Shown: positions 29,522 to 49,503 of the stretch, piece by piece | Layout: each line of letters starts with the position of its first letter | Numbering within the stretch: position 1 is the first letter of the stretch | Origin: Halomontanus rarus | GTDB lineage: Archaea > Halobacteriota > Halobacteria > Halobacteriales > Natrialbaceae | NCBI RefSeq assembly: GCF_017357405.1 | Contig: NZ_CP071597.1 | Coordinates: 3,348,001 to 3,412,000 of the forward strand | Reading direction: 5' to 3' | DNA length: 64,000 nt | Translations under genes and position numbers: made by a program | Notes under the pieces: model-generated | The model's database searches: none | Told to the model about the DNA's origin: nothing | What the model saw: the letters and a program-made list of their open reading frames with translations, nothing else

Positions 29522-32500
29522 TCGCGTTCCTCCGCGTTCTCGGCCGTCTCTCCGCCGTCGCTTGCGGGCCGGGCGCGGGACCCGGTCCGAGACGCGAACG
29601 AGACGTCGGGGCCGAAGTACCGCGTCCAGAGCACGAGCAGCGTCGGTAAGACGACGACGCTCGCGAGGAACGCGTAGGTGATCGTCAGCGCGGTGATGAT
29701 CCCGAACTGCCGGAGGACGGGCAGGATGGCGAACGAGAGAACGCCGAATCCGCCGACCGTGGTCGCCGCACTACCGAGCAACGCGCCGCCGGTCCCGGTG
29801 ACGGTCGTGTGCATCGCGTCCCAGACGCTGCCCTGTCGCTCCAACTCGAGCGTGTAGCGGGCGCTGATGTGAATGCTGTAGGCGACCCCGAGTCCGACGG
29901 TGAGGCTCGTGATCATCCCCGTCAGGACGTTGAACGGCATTCCCACGAGGTACATCGTGCCGAGGATCCAGCTCACCGAGAACGCCACCGGCAGGAGGGT
30001 GACCGCGCCCAGCGAGGCGCTGTTCCCGGTCGCCCAGTAGGCGATCGTCAGGAAGCCGAACACGGCGACGAGCGTGATCAACAGGCTCTCGAGGACCGTG
30101 TTCAGCAGGTCCTGTTCGACAATGTAATTGATGACTGGATCACCGGTTGCGATGGCGTCCCATCGATCGTCGGCGCCGTCGTCGTCGATCGTTCCCGCCA
30201 TCGCGCGCATCTCGTCGGTCGTCTCGCCGGTCGCGGCGCCGCCCTGAATCGCGACGATCATCCGCACCGCCTCGTAGTCGCCGTCGTCGGTCCGATAGAT
30301 GACCTCGCTGGCGGCGGCTTCGTCGGCGTCGAACAGCTCGTCGTACAGCGTTCCGACGTTCCGGTCGGGAACCCCGTTTCCGTCGGTGTCGGCGAGCTGG
30401 AACGACGCGTTGAACGACTCGTTCTCGGCCGCGACTCGATCCATTACAGAGAGCGGACTCCGGACGTCGGCGTCCCCGTTGGGGAGTTCGTAGATGATCC
30501 CGTTGTCGCGGTCGGCCGCCTCGTGTTGGGACCGGTTGATCCGCTCGAGAGTCTCCGCGTGCGTCACGTCTTCTCTGACGAGGATTTGGGCCTGTGCGTC
30601 CTCGCGCTGGAAGTTGTCGTTGACGAACTGGAGATCGTCTTTGGCCTGGTATTCACCGGGGGACAGCGGACCGAGGTTTTCGGTCCACGCGGGCGGACTC
30701 TCCGCGAGGAAGTCGTCCTCGTTGAAGCTGGTGTCGACCTGTGAGGCACCGTAGACGCCGCCGGCGGTCAGCAAGAGGACGGTGACGAGGACGACCAGCG
30801 GCGCTTTGCGGGCGGCGACGGAACCGACCGAGAGGACGTCGCTGAACCGCCCGCCGCCGGTCCCGAACGCTCGCTTTCGGCGGTCGATGCCACGCGACTC
30901 GAGGAACGAGTCGATCTCGACTTTGGCCGCGGGGATGAGCGCGCCGAAGACGATCAGCGCCGCGAGGATGCCGACCGAACTGACGATTCCGAACTCGCGG
31001 ATGGGGCCGATCGGGCTGACGAGGTTTGAGAGGAAGCCGATGACGGTCGTCGCGGTGACCCAGACGAGCGCGACGCCGACGCCGGCGAGGGCGACGTTCA
31101 TCGAACCTCGGACGTCACCGGTGGTACCCTCCGCCTCGCGTTGCTCGCGGGTCGCTTCGCTCCCCGCTCCTCCTTCCGAGGCGTGAAACGCCTCGCGTTG
31201 CTCGCGATGACGCATGAACACGTGGATGGCGTAGTCGATTGAGAGCCCGATCAGTAATACTGGAACCGCGACGAACATCTGGTTGAACGCGATACCGGCC
31301 CACCCCATGAACCCGAACGTCCAGATCAGGACGGCGAAGATCCCCGCGACACCGAGGACGATGTCGAGCGGATCGCGGTAGGCGACGAACAGCGCGAGCA
31401 CGACGAAGATCAGTGCGAGCGGCCCGACGATCGCCAGGCTGTCGGCCATCGACCGGTCGATCTCGTCGGAGATGATACCGAACCCGAAGACGACGTAGTC
31501 CTGATCCTGCGCGTTCGCGAGCGTCCGGAGATCGAGCTGGCTCTGGACGATCCGGTCGTCGGCTTCACCCATCTCCTGCATGCCACTGTCGCCTCCGGTC
31601 GACTGGGTGACGAACGCCATTCTGGCGTCGGCCGTCGTGCTTCCCGGCTCGTAGGACGACGGCATGAACTGGAGGGCTAGGTTGTCCCCCTCGTCGTCCG
31701 AGAGCGTGTCCTCGAGAACCGACTCGTACTCGCCGTCGTCGAGCTCCTCGACGGCTTCGATCTGTTCGTCGAGCGACGGCTGGCCGGCCGACTGGAGTGC
31801 TCGCTGCTCCTCCTCGAGCGCTTCGCTCTCTTCCTGGAGTTCTTCGTACTCGTCGGCGAGGACGCCCGAGGTCCCCTCGGTGTAGACCTCCTCGAGTTCC
31901 TCCTGGATCGCCGCGCTCTCTCGCTCGTACTCCTCCTCGCTGATCTCGCCCGCCTCGAGAGCGATTTCGAGTTCGACGAGTTCGGCGTTGAGACGCTGCA
32001 CGTTCGACATCGCGCGCTCGAACCGTGCGGACTGCTCGGCGTCGAGGTCCGCCGTCGCCTCCTCGAACACGCCGTCGAGTCCGGCTTCGATCTCTCCGGC
32101 CTGCTGCTGGTACTCCTCGTCGCCGACCTCACCTTGCTCGTAGGAGACGTTCAGTTGCTCGTACTCCCGCTGGAGTTCGCCCGCCTCGTCGAGAGCGGCC
32201 TGCAGGCGCCCCGCCGTCTCGTTGAGTTGCTCGCCTCTGGCCTCGAGTTCGGCACCGCGCTGCCGGAGGTCGTCGGCTTCCTGACCGCGGATGACGCTCG
32301 TCGCGATGACGTTCTCGACGCCGAAGATCGGATTCTCCGTGGCGAGCGTCGCGTTGACCGACTCGTTGTCTTTGATCTCCTGTTGAAATCTGAGCGAGGA
32401 GACGATCGAGTCCTGTGCGAGAACGTTGTCACCGTTTCCCCTAACGAATAGCTGTACGCTCGTCGTATTCTCGGCGTCGTCGGAGACGAAGTTGTCGTTG

Positions 32501-34546: not shown

Positions 34547-37500
34547 ATGGATGGGAGCGGTCTGCCGATTTCCGACGAGCAACTGCCGTTCGAGTTCGAC
34601 CCCGACGCCGTCGAGGACTGGGACGCCTTCGAGTTGCTCGAGCCCGCGGTTCAGGAATGGTGGCTCCGGGAGTTCGGCGAGTTCGTTCCCGAGAACGGCG
34701 GCTTCTTCACGCCGCCACAACGAGGGGCGATCCCGAAGATCCACGAGGGGACGAACACGCTAATCGCGGCGCCCACCGGGAGTGGTAAGTGTGTCAAGCC
34801 GGATACACCGATGATCGTCCAAGACGATGGGGAAGCGACTGTCCTTCGGGCGAGAGACCTTCTCGACCGCCGGAAGCGAAAAGTCACGGACGTCGACGAG
34901 GATGGGGAGTTACACACGAGTTCGATCGAGGCGTACTCGCTCGACGAGGATGAGCTGACGCTCCGTCAGTCGATGGTCTATTCGGAGGGATACGACGGGT
35001 CAATCCATCGAATTCGAACGTCGTACGGGAGGGAAGTCGAAGTCACACCGGATCATCCGCTCCTCGTCGAGACGTCGTCCGGACCCGAATGGCGGTCGGC
35101 GAGTACCATCGAAGCCGGCGATCGGATCGGTATCCCGACTCGTGTCGAACTCCCTGAACGAACGATCGACCTCGATGTCTGTGCCGCTCTGGATCGGCTT
35201 CGCTCGGAATTTCCGCTCGTCGCAACCGAAGCGGAATCGGATCGCATCGTCGCTCATCTCGAAGACGAAGCGCCGATCTCGGCGTTCGACGAGTCAGAAC
35301 GGTGGCTTGGAATGGCGCTTGCAGGTCTCTCACTGCCGGACGTGGCAGCTCACCTCTCTATCAGTGTTTCGTCCGTCTGGAAGCTGGTGACTGGCGAAAC
35401 CGAGTACCGTGCCGAGGAGTTTCTCGCGTTACTTCGGGCGGAGTGTACGCCGCTCGAACCTGGAGACGTACTCGTCAAAACCGACAACGGTCACGTTTCC
35501 CGTTTTCGCTATCCGACGACGCTCGATTCCGAACTCGCAGGGCTAGCTGCCTTCGTCCTCGCGGAGGGCTTGATCGGTGAGTACGATCGAGGCGCGTTCG
35601 TGACGATCTCGCAGAAAAATCGGACCGAACTACTCGAACAGGCAATGGAAACGATGCGAGATCGATTCGGTATCGAATTCGAGCGGAAGACGGAGATTGA
35701 CTACATTATTCCTAACACGGCGTTTTCCGTGTTCTTCTCAGAACTGCTGGATATCGAATCCGGTCCGGGTCGCGACGTACCGCTGCCGAACTGGGTGCTG
35801 AACGCGTCGAAACCGATCAAACGGTCGTTCCTCTCGACATTTTTGTCGCTAGAGGCCGAGATCCGATCCGACGAAGTTCGCCTCGTGCAGGCCAACGAGT
35901 TGAAGATAGAGCAGTTAACGTACCTCTTGCTCTCGTTCGGAATCCTCCCCGCTCGCGGTCGCCGGGAGAAGTACGCGACGAATACGGACGAACAGACTCG
36001 ACGAAAGTATCACTCGCTTACCGTTCGAGGGGTCGAGAATCTGTCCACGCTCCTGTCAGAGTGTTCGCTCGTCCATCCCAACGTCGACGAATTGAAAGCG
36101 CACGCGTCCAGACAGGGTAGCGGCAACCACATCGGACGACACGCGTTCGACTATCGGGATATTCGAGCGCTGTCGACGTACTTCGAGAACGATCGGGCGT
36201 TCAACGCCGAGCTCGGCAACATCTACGAAGTGGCCAGACGAAGCGGTTACCTCACGGAACGAGCACTGAAAACACTGTCTGCGAAACTCCAGTCGCTTCC
36301 GTCTGACGAGACGACGCGCGAACTCGCGGCGATAATCGACGACAGACTGGATCGAAACGTTGCCTGGGTCACCGTCGAATCGAACGAAACATCACACTAC
36401 AGCGGTCGGATCGTCGATCTCAGTGTTCCAGACACGCACAACTTCGTCGGTGGCCGCGGCGGAGTATACCTCCACAACACACTCGCGTCGTTCACGTCGA
36501 TTATCGACGAACTCTATCGGCGCGACCGCAAGCCACCCGCCGGCCTCGAGAACTCCGTCTACTGCCTCTACATCTCGCCGCTGAAGTCGCTGGCCAACGA
36601 CATCCACCGCAACCTCGAGGTGCCACTCGAGGGGATCACGTCGATCCTCGAGGAGCGCGGCGAGGACGTGGGCGAGATCCGCCACGCCATCCGCCACGGC
36701 GACACCTCCTCGAGCGACCGCCAGAAGATGCTCGAGGAGACCCCCCACATTCTGAACACGACGCCCGAAACCCTCGCGATCCTGTTGAACTCCCCTAAAT
36801 TCCGGGAGAAGCTGCGGACCGTCGAGTACGTCATCGTCGACGAGATCCACTCGCTGGCCGGCGGGAAGCGCGGGACGCACATGGCGGTGAGCCTCGAGCG
36901 GCTGGCGGCGTTGACCCACGAGGAGTTCACGCGGATCGGGTGTTCGGCGACGATCGAGCCGCTGTCGCGGGTGGCGGAGTTTCTGGTGGGGCAGCGCGAG
37001 GCGCCACGCGCCTCGGACGAGCGAGCGGGGAGCGAAGCGACCCGTGAGCCAGGCGCGGCGCCACGCGCCTCGGAAAGAGGAGCGGGAAGCGGAGCGACCC
37101 GTGAGCCAGGCGCGGCGCCACGCGCCTCGGAAAGAGGAGCGGGAAGCGAAGCGACCCGTGAGCCAGGCGCGGCGCCACGCGCCTCGGAAAGAGGAGCGGG
37201 AAGCGAAGCGACCCGCGAGTCGAGCGAACCGGACGATCGAACGCGCGACTACGAGATCGTCGACGCTCGCTTCGCCCGCGAGTTCGACCTCGAGCTCGAG
37301 TGTCCCGCGGACGACCTGATCAACACGCCGCGTGACGTCGTGCAGGACCGGTTCTATCGAATGCTCCACGAGCACATTCAGGACCACACCAACACCCTCG
37401 TCTTCACGAACACGCGCTCGGGAGCCGAACGGGTCCTGCACAACCTCCGGGAGCGCTTCGACGACTACGACGAGGAGAACTCCGGCTGTCACCACGGCAG

Positions 37501-39262
37501 CCTCTCGAAGGAGGTCCGTCAGGGGATCGAATCCCGGCTGAAAGACGGCGACCTCGAGGTCGTCACCTCTTCGACCAGCCTCGAGCTGGGGATCGACATG
37601 CCCCACGTGGATCTGGTGGTGCAGGTCGGCTCTCCGAAGAGCGTTGCGGCGCTGCTCCAGCGGGTCGGCCGCGCGGGCCACCGCGTCGGCCAGACGGTGA
37701 CGGGACGGGTGATCGCGCTCGACCGGGACGAACTCGTCGAGTGCGCGGTGATGCTCAAGAAGGCCGAGGAGGGGTTCGTCGATTCGGTGTCGATCCCCGA
37801 GAACGCCCAGGACGTCGCCGCCCAGCACGTCTACGGGATGGCAATCGCCGAGATCCGCCCCGAACGCGAGGTGAAGGCGGTCCTCCGGCAGGCCTACCCC
37901 TACCGGAACTACGGCGAGGCCGAGTTCGAACAGCTCATGCGCTATCTGACCGCCGACTACGCCGGCCTCGAGGACCGGAACGTCTACGCGAAAGTCTGGC
38001 GCGACGAGAATGACCCGCCGGAGGGCGAGCACCACCACGAGTCGTTCCCCGTCGGCGAACCCCTGATCGGCAAACGCGGTCGACTCGCCCGCGTGATCTA
38101 CATGACCAACATCGGGACCATCCCCGACTCGTTCACCTGCGACGTCTCGACCCGCGGGAGCAACGAGTGGGTCGGCCAGCTCGACGAGAGCTACCTCGAC
38201 ACCCTCGAGAAGGGCGACGTCTTCGTCCTCGGCGGCGACCACTTCGAGTACCGCTACCGCCGGGGGTCGAAGGTGTACGTCGACCGCACGAGCGCGCGAC
38301 CCACCGTTCCGTCGTGGTACTCCGAGCGGCTTCCACTGTCGTACGATCTGGGCTGTGAGATCCTCGCCTTCCAGCGGGAGCTCCTCGAGCGCCACGAGTC
38401 GGGCGGGCCGCCAGCGGTCCGGGCGTGGCTGCGCGAACTGCCGCTGGACGACGACAGCGTCCGGGCGCTCGCGCGGCTGTTCGACTATCAGCTCCGGTAC
38501 GCCGGCCCCGAGAGCGTCTCGACCGACTCCCGGCTCGTGGTCGAGGTCGAGCGTGACCGCCAGGAGTACGAGCGCCACTACTACGTCCACTCGGCGTACG
38601 GGCGGAAGGTCAACGACGGGCTCTCGCGACTGCTGGCCTACGAGTGCGCCCAGGAGGCCACCGCCAACGTTCAGGTCGCCGTCGCCGACAACGGCTTCGT
38701 CCTCTCGATGCCGCTGAACCGCAAGGTCGACCTCGAGGGGATCCTCGAGGACCTCCGGCCCGAGGACGTCCGCGAGAAACTCCGGAACGCGCTCGCGGGC
38801 ACCGACCTCCTCCAGCGGTACTTCCGGATCAACGCCACCCGCTCGCTGATGATCCTCAAACGCTACAAGGGCTACGAGAAGTCCGCGAGCGAACAGCAGG
38901 TCTCCAGCGAGATGCTGCTGGGCTTCGCCGAAGATCTCGAGGAGTTCGCCGTGATCGAGGAAACGTATCGGGAGATCCTCGAGGACAAACTGAACGTCGC
39001 CGAAATCGAGGGGATCGTCGGGGCGATGGCGTCGGGCGACCTTGAGGTGAGCCGACACCTGCTCGACTCGCCGACCCCGCGGGCGTTCGGCCTCGCGACG
39101 CTCTCGGCCAGCGACGTCGTCCTCGCCGAAGACGAGAGCGCCGCCCTGCAGGCGTTCCACGAGCACGTGCTCGAGGAGATCGGCGAGGAGTCGCTGGCGG
39201 GGCTCTCCGGGACCGACGGCCGGTCCGGGACAGGGACCGGGACGGCGACCGGCGACGAGTGA
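34547..39262 (+). CDS. lhr: Lhr-type ATP-dependent DNA/RNA helicase with intein in Walker A
   Basis: A superfamily 2 helicase precursor of 1571 residues; after protein splicing the mature enzyme is about 1008. Helicase motifs are I (APTGSGK, then T after the intein), Ia (SPLKSLANDI), II (VDEIHSL, about 764), III (SAT), V (TSSTSLELGIDM) and VI (QRVGRAGHR, about 1037). These, with a long C-terminal Lhr-core region, place it in the Lhr family of DNA-repair helicases. Between motifs III and IV a 57-base in-frame repeat adds about 73 residues. The intein interrupts the ATP-binding loop, so the enzyme can only be active after splicing. Confidence 0.95.
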   Translation: MDGSGLPISDEQLPFEFDPDAVEDWDAFELLEPAVQEWWLREFGEFVPENGGFFTPPQRGAIPKIHEGTNTLIAAPTGSGKCVKPDTPMIVQDDGEATVLRARDLLDRRKRKVTDVDEDGELHTSSIEAYSLDEDELTLRQSMVYSEGYDGSIHRIRTSYGREVEVTPDHPLLVETSSGPEWRSASTIEAGDRIGIPTRVELPERTIDLDVCAALDRLRSEFPLVATEAESDRIVAHLEDEAPISAFDESERWLGMALAGLSLPDVAAHLSISVSSVWKLVTGETEYRAEEFLALLRAECTPLEPGDVLVKTDNGHVSRFRYPTTLDSELAGLAAFVLAEGLIGEYDRGAFVTISQKNRTELLEQAMETMRDRFGIEFERKTEIDYIIPNTAFSVFFSELLDIESGPGRDVPLPNWVLNASKPIKRSFLSTFLSLEAEIRSDEVRLVQANELKIEQLTYLLLSFGILPARGRREKYATNTDEQTRRKYHSLTVRGVENLSTLLSECSLVHPNVDELKAHASRQGSGNHIGRHAFDYRDIRALSTYFENDRAFNAELGNIYEVARRSGYLTERALKTLSAKLQSLPSDETTRELAAIIDDRLDRNVAWVTVESNETSHYSGRIVDLSVPDTHNFVGGRGGVYLHNTLASFTSIIDELYRRDRKPPAGLENSVYCLYISPLKSLANDIHRNLEVPLEGITSILEERGEDVGEIRHAIRHGDTSSSDRQKMLEETPHILNTTPETLAILLNSPKFREKLRTVEYVIVDEIHSLAGGKRGTHMAVSLERLAALTHEEFTRIGCSATIEPLSRVAEFLVGQREAPRASDERAGSEATREPGAAPRASERGAGSGATREPGAAPRASERGAGSEATREPGAAPRASERGAGSEATRESSEPDDRTRDYEIVDARFAREFDLELECPADDLINTPRDVVQDRFYRMLHEHIQDHTNTLVFTNTRSGAERVLHNLRERFDDYDEENSGCHHGSLSKEVRQGIESRLKDGDLEVVTSSTSLELGIDMPHVDLVVQVGSPKSVAALLQRVGRAGHRVGQTVTGRVIALDRDELVECAVMLKKAEEGFVDSVSIPENAQDVAAQHVYGMAIAEIRPEREVKAVLRQAYPYRNYGEAEFEQLMRYLTADYAGLEDRNVYAKVWRDENDPPEGEHHHESFPVGEPLIGKRGRLARVIYMTNIGTIPDSFTCDVSTRGSNEWVGQLDESYLDTLEKGDVFVLGGDHFEYRYRRGSKVYVDRTSARPTVPSWYSERLPLSYDLGCEILAFQRELLERHESGGPPAVRAWLRELPLDDDSVRALARLFDYQLRYAGPESVSTDSRLVVEVERDRQEYERHYYVHSAYGRKVNDGLSRLLAYECAQEATANVQVAVADNGFVLSMPLNRKVDLEGILEDLRPEDVREKLRNALAGTDLLQRYFRINATRSLMILKRYKGYEKSASEQQVSSEMLLGFAEDLEEFAVIEETYREILEDKLNVAEIEGIVGAMASGDLEVSRHLLDSPTPRAFGLATLSASDVVLAEDESAALQAFHEHVLEEIGEESLAGLSGTDGRSGTGTGTATGDE
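34790..36478 (+). mobile_element. Intein with LAGLIDADG-type homing endonuclease region
   Basis: 563 residues of the helicase precursor (82-644). The N-terminal Cys follows GSGK and the intein ends HN before Thr645. Block A starts CVKPDTP; block B has TPDHPLL; the C-terminal blocks read VTVESNETSHYSGRIVDLSV and THNFVGGRGGVYLHN. The endonuclease-like part contains GLAAFVLAEG and KRSFLSTFLSLEAE as two degenerate dodecapeptides, and an extra HTH-like stretch (LSLPDVAAHLSISVSSVW). Its DNA is visibly less GC-rich than the flanking extein, as expected for a mobile insert. Splicing residues look complete; endonuclease activity is uncertain. Confidence 0.93.
37001..37219. repeat. 57-bp in-frame tandem repeat (about 4 copies) in the helicase gene
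   Basis: Copies start at 37001, 37058, 37115 and 37172. Each encodes 19 residues of the form APRASERGAGSEATREPGA. The first copy is more diverged and closest to the single copy in the RND gene. Units contain the hairpin GAGGCGC-CAC-GCGCCTC or its variant and GCGGG...CCCGC arms. Confidence 0.92.
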
Positions 39263-46617: not shown

Positions 46618-49503
46618 TCACCGATCCGCCCACTCGAGCATCCGTTCGTACACCGGATCGCTCTCGAGCGCCCGTCGGTCGCCGACGAGGACGAGCGCCC
46701 GCTTGGGTCGGGTGAGCGCGACGTTGATTCGCCGGTAGTCCTCGAAGATCGGTCCCTCGAGATCCCCGGTGGCGACGAAGGAGACGATGATGATCTCCTT
46801 GCTCGAACCCTGGAACCGGTCGACGGTGTCGACGGCGACGTCGTCGGACACGTGGTTCCCGATCTCGGACACCTGCGCGCGGAAGGGGGCGATGACGCCG
46901 ATCGCATCGCGCTCCACGCCGGCCGCCTCGTAGGTCTCGATCAACTCGACGATGCGCGCCGCCTCCTCGCTGTCGGTGTACTGGCTGCCGTCGCCGGCTA
47001 CGTCGACGAACGAGACGGGATCGCGGAGGGCCTCGGGCAGGGCGTCCCGCGAGACGCCCTCGAGGTCGTCGAGGGTACGCCCCGCCACCTCGGGCGTCGC
47101 GGGCCGGAGTTCGCCGTCGTAGAACTCCCGGGAGGCGAAGACCTGGATACGCTGGTTCATGCGGTACTGGCGGTCGAGCATCACGCCCGCGTCCGGATAC
47201 GACTCGACGAGTCGCTCGAACAGCGACCGCGAGAGTTCGTTCTCGGCGCGCACAACCGGCGGCAGCTGCTCGTGATCGCCGACGAGGGCGAACCGCTCTG
47301 CGAGGTTGATCGCCGCGTACGTGCCGGGCTCGGTGAGCTGTGCGGCCTCGTCGACCAGCGCGACGTCGAACGACTGCTCTTTCATCGTTCGCGATCCGCA
47401 GGTCGCGGTCGTCGCGGCGACTACCTGCGCATCCTCCAGCTCCGCGAGTCGCTCTTCGGGCTCGCCGGAGCGCTCGAGGCGGTAGGACAGCATGTCTTCG
47501 CGGACGCCGCTCTCGGTGCCGACGCGGACGAAGTCCGTGAACCCCTGGTCGCGAAGCGCCTCGAGAGCGTTGTCGACGGCCCGGTTCGTGAACGCCGACA
47601 GCAGGACCCGGTCGCCGCGCTCGACCATCGCGCGGATGGCGCGGGCGATGGTGTACGTCTTCCCGGTGCCGGGCGGGCCGTGGATGAGTGCACAGTCTTC
47701 GGCGGTCACCGCCTTCGTGACGGCCTCGTTCTGGCGTTCGTTGTTGTCGATGAACGTCTCCTCGGTGTCCTCGAACGCCGGTTTCGTGCGCCCGAACAGG
47801 ATATCCTTTCGCCGCTCCCCGCCCTTCAGGAGCGCGTCGTGGAGGGCGGTGAGCAGCCGATCGGTGGTGAGTTCCGAGGGGTAGATGTCGAGGCGGGTCA
47901 CCTCGACGGGTTCGTCCGCCGTCAGGACGAGTTCTCGCGGCTGGGGACCGCTCGAAGCGTCCGCGGAGCGCGGCTCCGTGCGCTCGTCGAACCGCTCGAT
48001 CCGCGCGAGTTCCGCCTCGCCGCGCACCGGATGTCCGTCGCTCGCCAGAACCAGGTCGCCTTCGCGAATCTTCGAGGTGGCGGGCGAGCGCTGGCGGGCG
48101 CGCAGTTCCCAGCGGCCGCCCTCGAGTTCGCGTTTCTCGAGGAACTCGAGGTCGATCAGGGCGCGATCGTCGTCGGCCCGTTCCCTCGCGTCCTGCTCCC
48201 AGAGCTTGGCGTACTCCCGGTGGACTTCGCGGCGTTCTTCCTCGATCGCGCGGTAGAATCGGTCGAAGTACTCCCGTTCCTCGACGGGCAGGGCCGTGCC
48301 GATCTGACCGGCTTTCGACTCCTGATCGAGTCGACCCGAGACGACCATGCAGGTGTCGCGTTCGAAGCAGTACTCGCACTTGGCGTTGCCCTCGCGGCCC
48401 GTCGGCACCCCGTCGTCGAACTCCATCGCCGCGATTTCGTTTCGCAAGCGGACGACAAACTTCAGGAGGCCGGCACCCATCGAGAAGTCCTTCGCCGGCG
48501 TCAGGTCGCCGGTCTCCTCGTTGCGGTCGAGCGCCGAGTTCTTCGTGTACAGCAGGGTCCCGGTGTCGACCGAGCCGCCGTGTTCCTCGAGTAAGAGTGC
48601 GTAACAGGCGGCCTGCACCTTGTCCTTGAACCGCGGTTCCTTCTTCAGATTCTTGCCGGTCTTGAGTTCGACCGGCGCGCCGCGGCGGATGGCGTCGGCC
48701 CGGCCTCTGATGCCGAACGTCTCGCTGATGAGCAGTTGCTCGGAGCGCCACTCGCTCTCCGCGGGCGTGAACGCCCGCTCCGGGTTGTCGGCGGCAGTAG
48801 CCGCCCCATCGTCTTCGGTGAGACGCCCCTGCTCGAGCCACCCCTCGATCGCCGCCGCGTTCTGCCGGACGTCCTCCGCGACCGACTCGGCTGACTCGCC
48901 GAGCAGGCCGAGTTCGAGCCCGCGCTCGTCGATCCGCTCTTCGATCGAGGCCTCGAGGTCCCGCCCGCGAAGGAGGTCGCCGAAGACCTCGTGGACGAGC
49001 GTCCCCTTCGTCACGGGGTAGTTCAGCGGCACGCCCGAGAGCTTGTTCAGGTAGTACAGCCGGGGGCACTCGACCCAGCTCCGGATGTCGGTGACGTTCA
49101 CCAGGAAATCCGGCTCGACGACGACGTAGGAGTCGCCGGTCGTCGAGAACTGTTGTTCCCCCTGATACTCGCGCTCCTCGGCCTCGGTGACCAGAATCTC
49201 CATGCCGGGCTCGAGCAGTTCGGCCGACTCGGCCCACTTGCCCCAGCAGGTGATCGTGGTCGTAGTCGCACCCTTGGTTTCGGATTCCGTTTGCGTTTCT
49301 GTTTTCGTTTCCGCCTCCAATCCCGCCTCTCGCTTCGACGCTGCGTCCGTTCCGAGCGTCGTCTGGTCCGCGGTGTTCTGCGAGCCGTCGTCCGACGCTC
49401 CATCCGTCAGCTGTACCGGGACCTCCGCGAGGTCGCTTTCGCCGTAACTCGTCGATACTGTTCGAACCTCGACACTACCGGCGACGGTCCCGCGTACGTT
49501 CAC
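46618..49503 (-). CDS. dna2: Dna2-like nuclease-helicase
   Basis: A 961-residue protein joining a Cas4/RecB-like nuclease to a superfamily 1B helicase, as in Dna2. The nuclease part (about 125-430) starts with CPRLYYL, has GTLVHEVFGDLL, and ends in CEYCFERDTC, giving the four Cys of an iron-sulfur cluster; VELKTGK supplies the catalytic acid and Lys. The helicase part shows GPPGTGKTYTI (Walker A, about 640), VDEAAQ (Walker B), QYRMN, and VDRFQGSSKEIIIVS. This enzyme processes flaps in replication and resects breaks. The GTG at 49503 (VNVRGTVAG) is preferred; an upstream extension lacks conservation character. Confidence 0.93.
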   Translation of the reverse strand: MNVRGTVAGSVEVRTVSTSYGESDLAEVPVQLTDGASDDGSQNTADQTTLGTDAASKREAGLEAETKTETQTESETKGATTTTITCWGKWAESAELLEPGMEILVTEAEEREYQGEQQFSTTGDSYVVVEPDFLVNVTDIRSWVECPRLYYLNKLSGVPLNYPVTKGTLVHEVFGDLLRGRDLEASIEERIDERGLELGLLGESAESVAEDVRQNAAAIEGWLEQGRLTEDDGAATAADNPERAFTPAESEWRSEQLLISETFGIRGRADAIRRGAPVELKTGKNLKKEPRFKDKVQAACYALLLEEHGGSVDTGTLLYTKNSALDRNEETGDLTPAKDFSMGAGLLKFVVRLRNEIAAMEFDDGVPTGREGNAKCEYCFERDTCMVVSGRLDQESKAGQIGTALPVEEREYFDRFYRAIEEERREVHREYAKLWEQDARERADDDRALIDLEFLEKRELEGGRWELRARQRSPATSKIREGDLVLASDGHPVRGEAELARIERFDERTEPRSADASSGPQPRELVLTADEPVEVTRLDIYPSELTTDRLLTALHDALLKGGERRKDILFGRTKPAFEDTEETFIDNNERQNEAVTKAVTAEDCALIHGPPGTGKTYTIARAIRAMVERGDRVLLSAFTNRAVDNALEALRDQGFTDFVRVGTESGVREDMLSYRLERSGEPEERLAELEDAQVVAATTATCGSRTMKEQSFDVALVDEAAQLTEPGTYAAINLAERFALVGDHEQLPPVVRAENELSRSLFERLVESYPDAGVMLDRQYRMNQRIQVFASREFYDGELRPATPEVAGRTLDDLEGVSRDALPEALRDPVSFVDVAGDGSQYTDSEEAARIVELIETYEAAGVERDAIGVIAPFRAQVSEIGNHVSDDVAVDTVDRFQGSSKEIIIVSFVATGDLEGPIFEDYRRINVALTRPKRALVLVGDRRALESDPVYERMLEWADR

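Follow-up and report, generated by a model that had tools for sequence, protein, structure and literature searches.

The window, by which we mean the whole 64,000-nucleotide stretch of DNA analysed, holds on its plus strand at 34547–39262 an open reading frame of 1571 aa, intein included, for an lhr-type ATP-dependent helicase (NCBIfam PRK13767, 1298 bits against a cut-off of 849). This frame stays open throughout four 57-nt units at 36995–37220, which follow GCSATI, taken by us to be helicase motif III, and precede DYEIVDARF. Copy 1 (EAPRASDERAGSEATRE, 36995–37049, 62.5 bits and E 6.5e-9 with covariance model R2) has its first hairpin at 36998–37014 and its second at 37021–37049; it is followed on the same strand by copy 2 (AAPRASERGAGSGATRE, 37052–37106, 47.5 bits) and by copies 3 and 4 (both AAPRASERGAGSEATRE; 37109–37163, 48.3 bits, and 37166–37220, 53.5 bits). 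TRF reports the array at 36996–37219 with period 57, 3.9 copies, 95% matches and a score of 397, as compared to only 72 for the runner-up array in the window, and a repeat search returned it as three overlapping 114-nt copies, spaced by 57, at 89–92% to the reference. An earlier sequence-only reading had proposed four in-frame units of 57 bp, each with hairpin-forming arms, and both points are borne out: the 7-bp arms of unit 1 (36998–37004 with 37008–37014) pair perfectly, and units 2–4 have one mismatch in the left arm. The same reading put the insert at about 73 residues; it is indeed in frame, with its size corrected to 76 residues by ortholog linkers. The linker after FLVG is 88 aa here versus 12 aa in 11 Natrialbaceae (e.g. 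FLVG-REEPGGDPRDYE-IVDARF) among the 32 of 81 sequences that our regular expression parsed, 49 being missed, and the net difference of 76 residues, or 228 nt, is exactly 4 × 57.

The array probably began as a single insertion, whose 57-nt unit was then duplicated in tandem up to four, most simply through slippage or unequal recombination. At the same Lhr site, the inserts of Natronoglomus mannanivorans, the nearest named relative, are related to these but not the same, and another lineage (G271, locus L217) has one clean 57-nt insert about 6 residues further on, within EEPGGE-PRPYDIV, so that Lhr has been hit at two positions. The linker is hypervariable, and some long linkers, in five loci (L061, L063, L064, L075 and L137), are unlike the element. 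In two lhr genes of Natronococcus (L129:10199–10246 and L130:10166–10213), copies occupy a different loop, upstream of GEIRHAIRHG; most of 31 aligned Lhr sequences have no element there. The lhr intein lies in the Walker A region (34790–36478, SGK|CVKPD ... HN|TLASF, 563 aa, with a TIGR01445 match), and two lhr fragments (L155 and L191) start with sequence resembling it. An AlphaFold model of Lhr (927 aa) gives the insert a pLDDT near 30 and no secondary structure; with other parts equally low and a mean pLDDT of 55.6, its quality is too poor for it to be used in judging the insert.

Two further copies lie in the window, both on the minus strand. The first, at 31143–31197 (EAFHASEGGAGSEATRE, R2 50.5 bits), is the copy in the RND transporter gene that had already been pointed out; it is one of the 49 rows of our first alignment, A1, and is followed by a partial repeat of the REQRE that precedes it. 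An RND paralog in the same genome (C2:177412) lacks the insert and thus provides an empty site. The second, at 47933–47982 (TEPRSADASSGPQPRE, R2 50.2 bits), goes unmentioned in the sequence-only reading; it has different hairpin-1 arms and lies in a gene for an IGHMBP2-like helicase that scores 325 bits against TIGR00376, just below the cut-off of 349.

Each element consists of a GAGGCGC-CAC-GCGCCTC hairpin, GGA, and a GCGG...CCGC hairpin, and is about 48, 51 or 57 nt long. Alignment A1 of 49 copies resolves this into GC-GAGGCGC-CAC-GCGCCTC-GGA with 1 to 4 free bases after it, and then X-CGA-GCGG-loop-CCGC-GAG-X'. The outer hairpin-2 pair X/X' gives the cleaner test of pairing, since it was absent from the search pattern: in the 48 copies parsed (of 90 contexts, 42 did not match the expression) it is T-A in 27, G-C in 17, C-G in one and non-Watson-Crick in three. 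Hairpin-1 arms occur as GAGGCGC/GCGCCTC, GAGACGC/GCGTCTC, GCGGAAC/GTTCCGC, GTGGCGC/GCGCCAC and GCGGCGG/CCGCCGC. Overall, 97.7% of 705 cells are paired in the first alignment, as are 96.9% of 1304 in a wider alignment of 88 distinct rows, which was fitted to the model and therefore leans towards structure. In the wider alignment, 12 of the 15 pairs show two-sided compensatory changes, and the 159 cells with such changes compare with a mean of 44 in shuffles, none of 500 reaching that number. Since the copies behind models R1 and R2 were collected with the exact pattern and with R1 itself, the pair counts lean to structure here too. In A1 a symmetric GA/AG tandem mismatch breaks the hairpin-2 stem, and GCGAAGC is frequent in this hairpin where the loop is long. 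An Rfam search of 36900–37300 gave two chance-level matches, both under the gathering score, and no known RNA family.

The element is widely dispersed. A search of 391 genomes of the class for the exact first-hairpin pattern GAGRCGCCWCGCGYCTCGGA gave 93 matches, spread over 59 genomes and 26 of the 86 genera, as compared to none in the same 391 genomes for the pattern read backwards; viral contigs gave no match to the exact first hairpin. BLAST of the repeat against its own genome retrieves only the nearest copies, and covariance models are needed for the rest. With R2, this genome has at least 24 copies at E below 3e-4, and matches were found in 33 of 39 genomes across the class, with up to at least 32 copies per genome, these numbers being lower bounds because 150 candidates per genome were scored. 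In 1.68 Mb from 81 sources there are 54 R1 matches at E up to 1, of which the RND copy alone is a row of A1, and 28 R2 matches at E up to 0.01. Several R2 matches, in this set and among the 24 of this genome, are rows of R2's own alignment, A3. The reversed decoy R3, built from 30 of 46 distinct reversed rows and with 14 pairs rather than 15, gives three matches at E up to 1 on the same 1.68 Mb, the best at E 0.17. The sequence-only reading had also taken a 22-base core as the thing to search for; the dispersed element is real, but the core is not its unit, for the arms vary by compensatory changes and a fixed core undercounts the copies. In Halapricum hydrolyticum, three tandem two-hairpin copies of about 63 nt each lie in apparently non-coding DNA (L105:8566–8758).

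Might these segments instead be convergent low-complexity linkers, disordered loops that drift to similar acidic codons by composition alone? The hypervariable Lhr linker, with its several long forms unlike the element, would suit such drift. For copies that R1 or R2 matches we nevertheless consider it extremely improbable, given a 20-base pattern found in 26 genera and in no controls, arms that covary, copies outside coding frames and a clean decoy model. Moreover, copies differ in the frame used for hairpin 2, one and the same DNA giving either SGERSDPRD or AGSEATRE, and this points to copied DNA rather than to convergent peptides.

Sixteen genes of this genome contain copies in sense frame 0, accounting for 21 of the 24; the other three are either non-coding or placed where an open frame ends. 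Lhr has four copies, and LeuRS and a CobN-like protein have two each. Single copies occur in dihydrolipoamide acyltransferase (E2), glutamate synthase, an aldo/keto reductase-like enzyme, the RND transporter, PurD, GluRS, TrpB, a MerA-family flavoprotein, a heavy-metal P-type ATPase, the IGHMBP2-like helicase, PurN-PurH, PurL and one protein without a family. LeuRS, PurD, GluRS, TrpB, MerA, the ATPase, PurN/PurH, PurL and Lhr score above curated cut-offs; the remaining named hosts score below theirs and so carry family-level names, with a 3-kb piece scored for CobN and glutamate synthase. Across the class, 91 of the 93 exact first-hairpin matches share one frame, which encodes E[AT]PR[AV]S[DE]. 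Ninety of the 93 could be placed in context (88 in sense frame 0, one in frame +1 and one without a clear coding frame), and the remaining three, all from this genome, are in sense frame 0. The same preference is seen among model hits that are coding on both sides (57 of 58 in sense frame 0) and among 60 further model hits from seven genomes, drawn from some 150 listed, where 40 are coding in sense frame 0, one is best read antisense and 19 are non-coding or unclear. Our automatic coding rule marked 26 of 84 copies as possibly non-coding, seven of them in this genome, of which four were reassigned by hand to E2-like, GluRS, TrpB and Lhr reading frames; the other 19 were left as marked, so that the intergenic share is an upper bound.

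Among the 26 copies outside clear coding context, six have a stop in frame 0. The 57 coding copies have in this frame a mean net charge of −0.26 and 17% hydrophobic residues, as compared to net charges of +2.1 to +3.9 and 23–43% hydrophobic residues in the other five frames, only one of which has frequent stops (24 of 57 copies). The predicted frame-0 peptide is EAPRASExSSGERSDPRD or EAPRASExxAGSEATRE. Because frame 0 alone yields a polar, near-neutral peptide, the frame would be set by purifying selection and not by insertion. To judge from the predicted peptides, purifying selection may thus act as the filter on the reading frame of in-gene copies.

Clean empty sites in orthologs, which the sequence-only reading had named as support for a mobile element, are present in Lhr, TrpA and the helicase, as well as in the RND paralog. 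Among 116 parsed TrpA proteins (from the best 120 homologs of 7837 at E up to 1e-20), 72 are empty, with 7 or 8 residues after LQYG, 42 are filled, with 22 or more, and two fall between; with 7 residues as the baseline, inserts of 16 residues are the most frequent (28 proteins), and those of 17 (5) and 36 (5) come next. Natrinema salinisoli TrpA is filled and that of N. salsiterrestre empty, and the two are about 98% alike elsewhere. The filled state requires 27 changes on a quick tree, as compared to a mean of 34.1 and a minimum of 26 in 100 label shuffles; filling is patchy, with weak inheritance. As the TrpA site is common to many species, inheritance, loss and gene exchange could yield part of this patchiness. 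Of five AlphaFold models of filled TrpA proteins, the best has a mean pLDDT of 76.8 (44–68 in the rest); it places the insert, residues 108–123, between two helices as a loop whose pLDDT is below 50. Relatives of the helicase at 47933 include six empty and seven filled sequences among the 13 of 81 sources that were parsed: within Haloarcula, H. vallismortis and H. japonica are empty and H. argentinensis, H. sebkhae, H. mannanilytica and H. salina are filled, and in this genome, Natronoglomus and Halobiforma an element with other arms occupies the same spot. An insert shared by all Lhr orthologs, with its core nowhere else, is excluded by the empty Lhr sites together with the dispersed copies.

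These sites also bear on whether the hairpins are kept for an RNA-level function of the host, such as translation pausing or mRNA protection, and spread by ordinary recombination and selection rather than as a selfish element. Compensatory changes do persist within coding sequence, and the same loops of TrpA, the helicase, Lhr and RND are filled across genera and families, both of which speak for such a function. Yet the insert is absent from close species, as in the TrpA pair, its host genes are unrelated, and some copies stand outside clear coding context with frame-0 stops; we therefore regard this explanation as unlikely.

Evidence for copying comes from within genomes. One genome (G035) has five copies, three genic and two apparently non-coding, that are 92–96% alike over 50 nt, with 60-nt flanks 51–63% alike versus a mean of 46% for all within-genome pairs. 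In 15 within-genome pairs the element is at least 88% alike and the flanks under 65%, some of these pairs combining a copy in a gene with one in apparently non-coding DNA. Flank similarity for the closest copies (0.48–0.63) is somewhat above the average (0.46), perhaps reflecting remains of older elements. Mean element identity is no higher within genomes (0.629) than between them (0.635), so most copies are probably old. Both 36-residue TrpA inserts for which DNA was read (L178 and L186) contain, after the first element match, a weaker second one, an arrangement that looks like insertion of an element into hairpin 2 of an existing copy. This nested element has GAGCGG on both sides, which could be a target duplication; at the TrpA insertion site itself no target duplication is visible. 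Near-identical copies with unlike flanks, together with nesting and tandem growth, are our reasons for reading the element as mobile. The earlier proposal of a mobile palindromic element that tolerates insertion in genes thus stands as regards distribution and empty sites, and movement itself is suggested by the distribution.

A link to the IS200/IS605 transposase TnpA was sought and not found: at 30 loci around Y1 transposase genes in this and related genomes (from 34 places), R2 had just two matches under E 0.001, both more than 1 kb from the gene. Spread without any transposase, with template switching at stalled replication forks and quasi-palindrome correction arising as side effects of GC-rich hairpins, would fit with that result, with arms that change together, with the tandem arrays of lhr and of H. 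hydrolyticum and with the nested TrpA copies. Templated repair of this kind acts locally, however, and in G035 copies 92–96% alike are found at five places of one genome, which makes such spread rather unlikely in our view, if somewhat less so than an RNA-level function.

We consider it likely that the copies belong to a family of non-autonomous, REP/MITE-like two-hairpin DNA elements dispersed through Halobacteria, whose in-gene copies survive in one frame. Under this reading, copies would reach new sites, a step suggested by where they are found, possibly with an enzyme acting in trans that recognizes the hairpins, which is our guess; they are present in non-coding DNA and genes alike. Almost all genic copies are in sense frame 0, at a codon boundary, and at a loop site where the model is adequate (TrpA), and purifying selection would keep them in the polar, near-neutral frame. 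Only tentatively do we go further and picture a mobile hairpin element of ancient origin, spread throughout the class and surviving chiefly as translated in-frame peptide inserts, or “genic REPs”, moved by a hypothetical hairpin-recognizing enzyme. If true, the element would continually supply haloarchaeal core enzymes with new disordered loops, tandem expansions and nested loops.

Several haloarchaeal genera can be grown and manipulated. A class-wide coding palindrome in free-living archaea would therefore permit direct tests of movement, of one-frame survival and of insert effects on enzymes such as TrpA, Lhr, LeuRS and PurL; the element could also explain some odd species-specific loops of haloarchaeal proteins. 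Protein-coding palindromes are, according to the accounts given in two sources, best known from intracellular bacteria (PMC10969869, PMC2996958).

REP elements of the GTAG and CGTC families, associated with RAYT transposases, are outlined as short palindromes in many copies, often paired and, in bacteria, sometimes inside genes (PMC3733652). As described there they are mostly outside genes, whereas the haloarchaeal element is largely genic; no GTAG/CGTC tag conserved at the hairpin foot was seen by eye in A1 or the flanks inspected, and the 30 loci revealed no tie to Y1 transposase genes. The MITE, PATE and SMR repeats of Haloquadratum walsbyi are presented as transposase-free mobile repeats, with PATEs having near-terminal palindromes and a relationship to IS605, and SMRs having terminal inverted repeats (SMR-A is about 110 bp) (PMC3119063); they too are haloarchaeal and non-autonomous, and an in-frame coding role is not among the features described for them in the parts of that source consulted. 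PARCEL, likewise a palindromic repeat read as protein, is given as absent from the archaeal genomes then available (PMC2996958). Palindromic repeats with coding potential occur in genes of Methanocaldococcus jannaschii (Suyama et al. 2005, as cited in PMC2996958); compared by description only, these are likewise archaeal palindromic coding repeats, but in a methanogen of another lineage. Titles and abstract openings of the open literature, which leaves most subscription journals outside, yielded no description of the haloarchaeal element. By analogy, it would be a palindromic coding repeat of the kind exemplified by Rickettsia palindromic elements, in a variant form not described in the open literature searched. 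Those elements and their Wolbachia equivalents are characterized as dispersed palindromic DNA lying in frame in non-structured segments of unrelated housekeeping genes (PMC10969869, PMC2996958), and the Rickettsia elements as bacterial and about 150 bp long (PMC10969869). Compared by description only, the two share palindromic copies in unrelated genes, one orientation and frame, and empty sites in orthologs; unlike the Rickettsia elements, the haloarchaeal element is 48–57 nt long, archaeal and class-wide, and is built of two hairpins with covarying arms.
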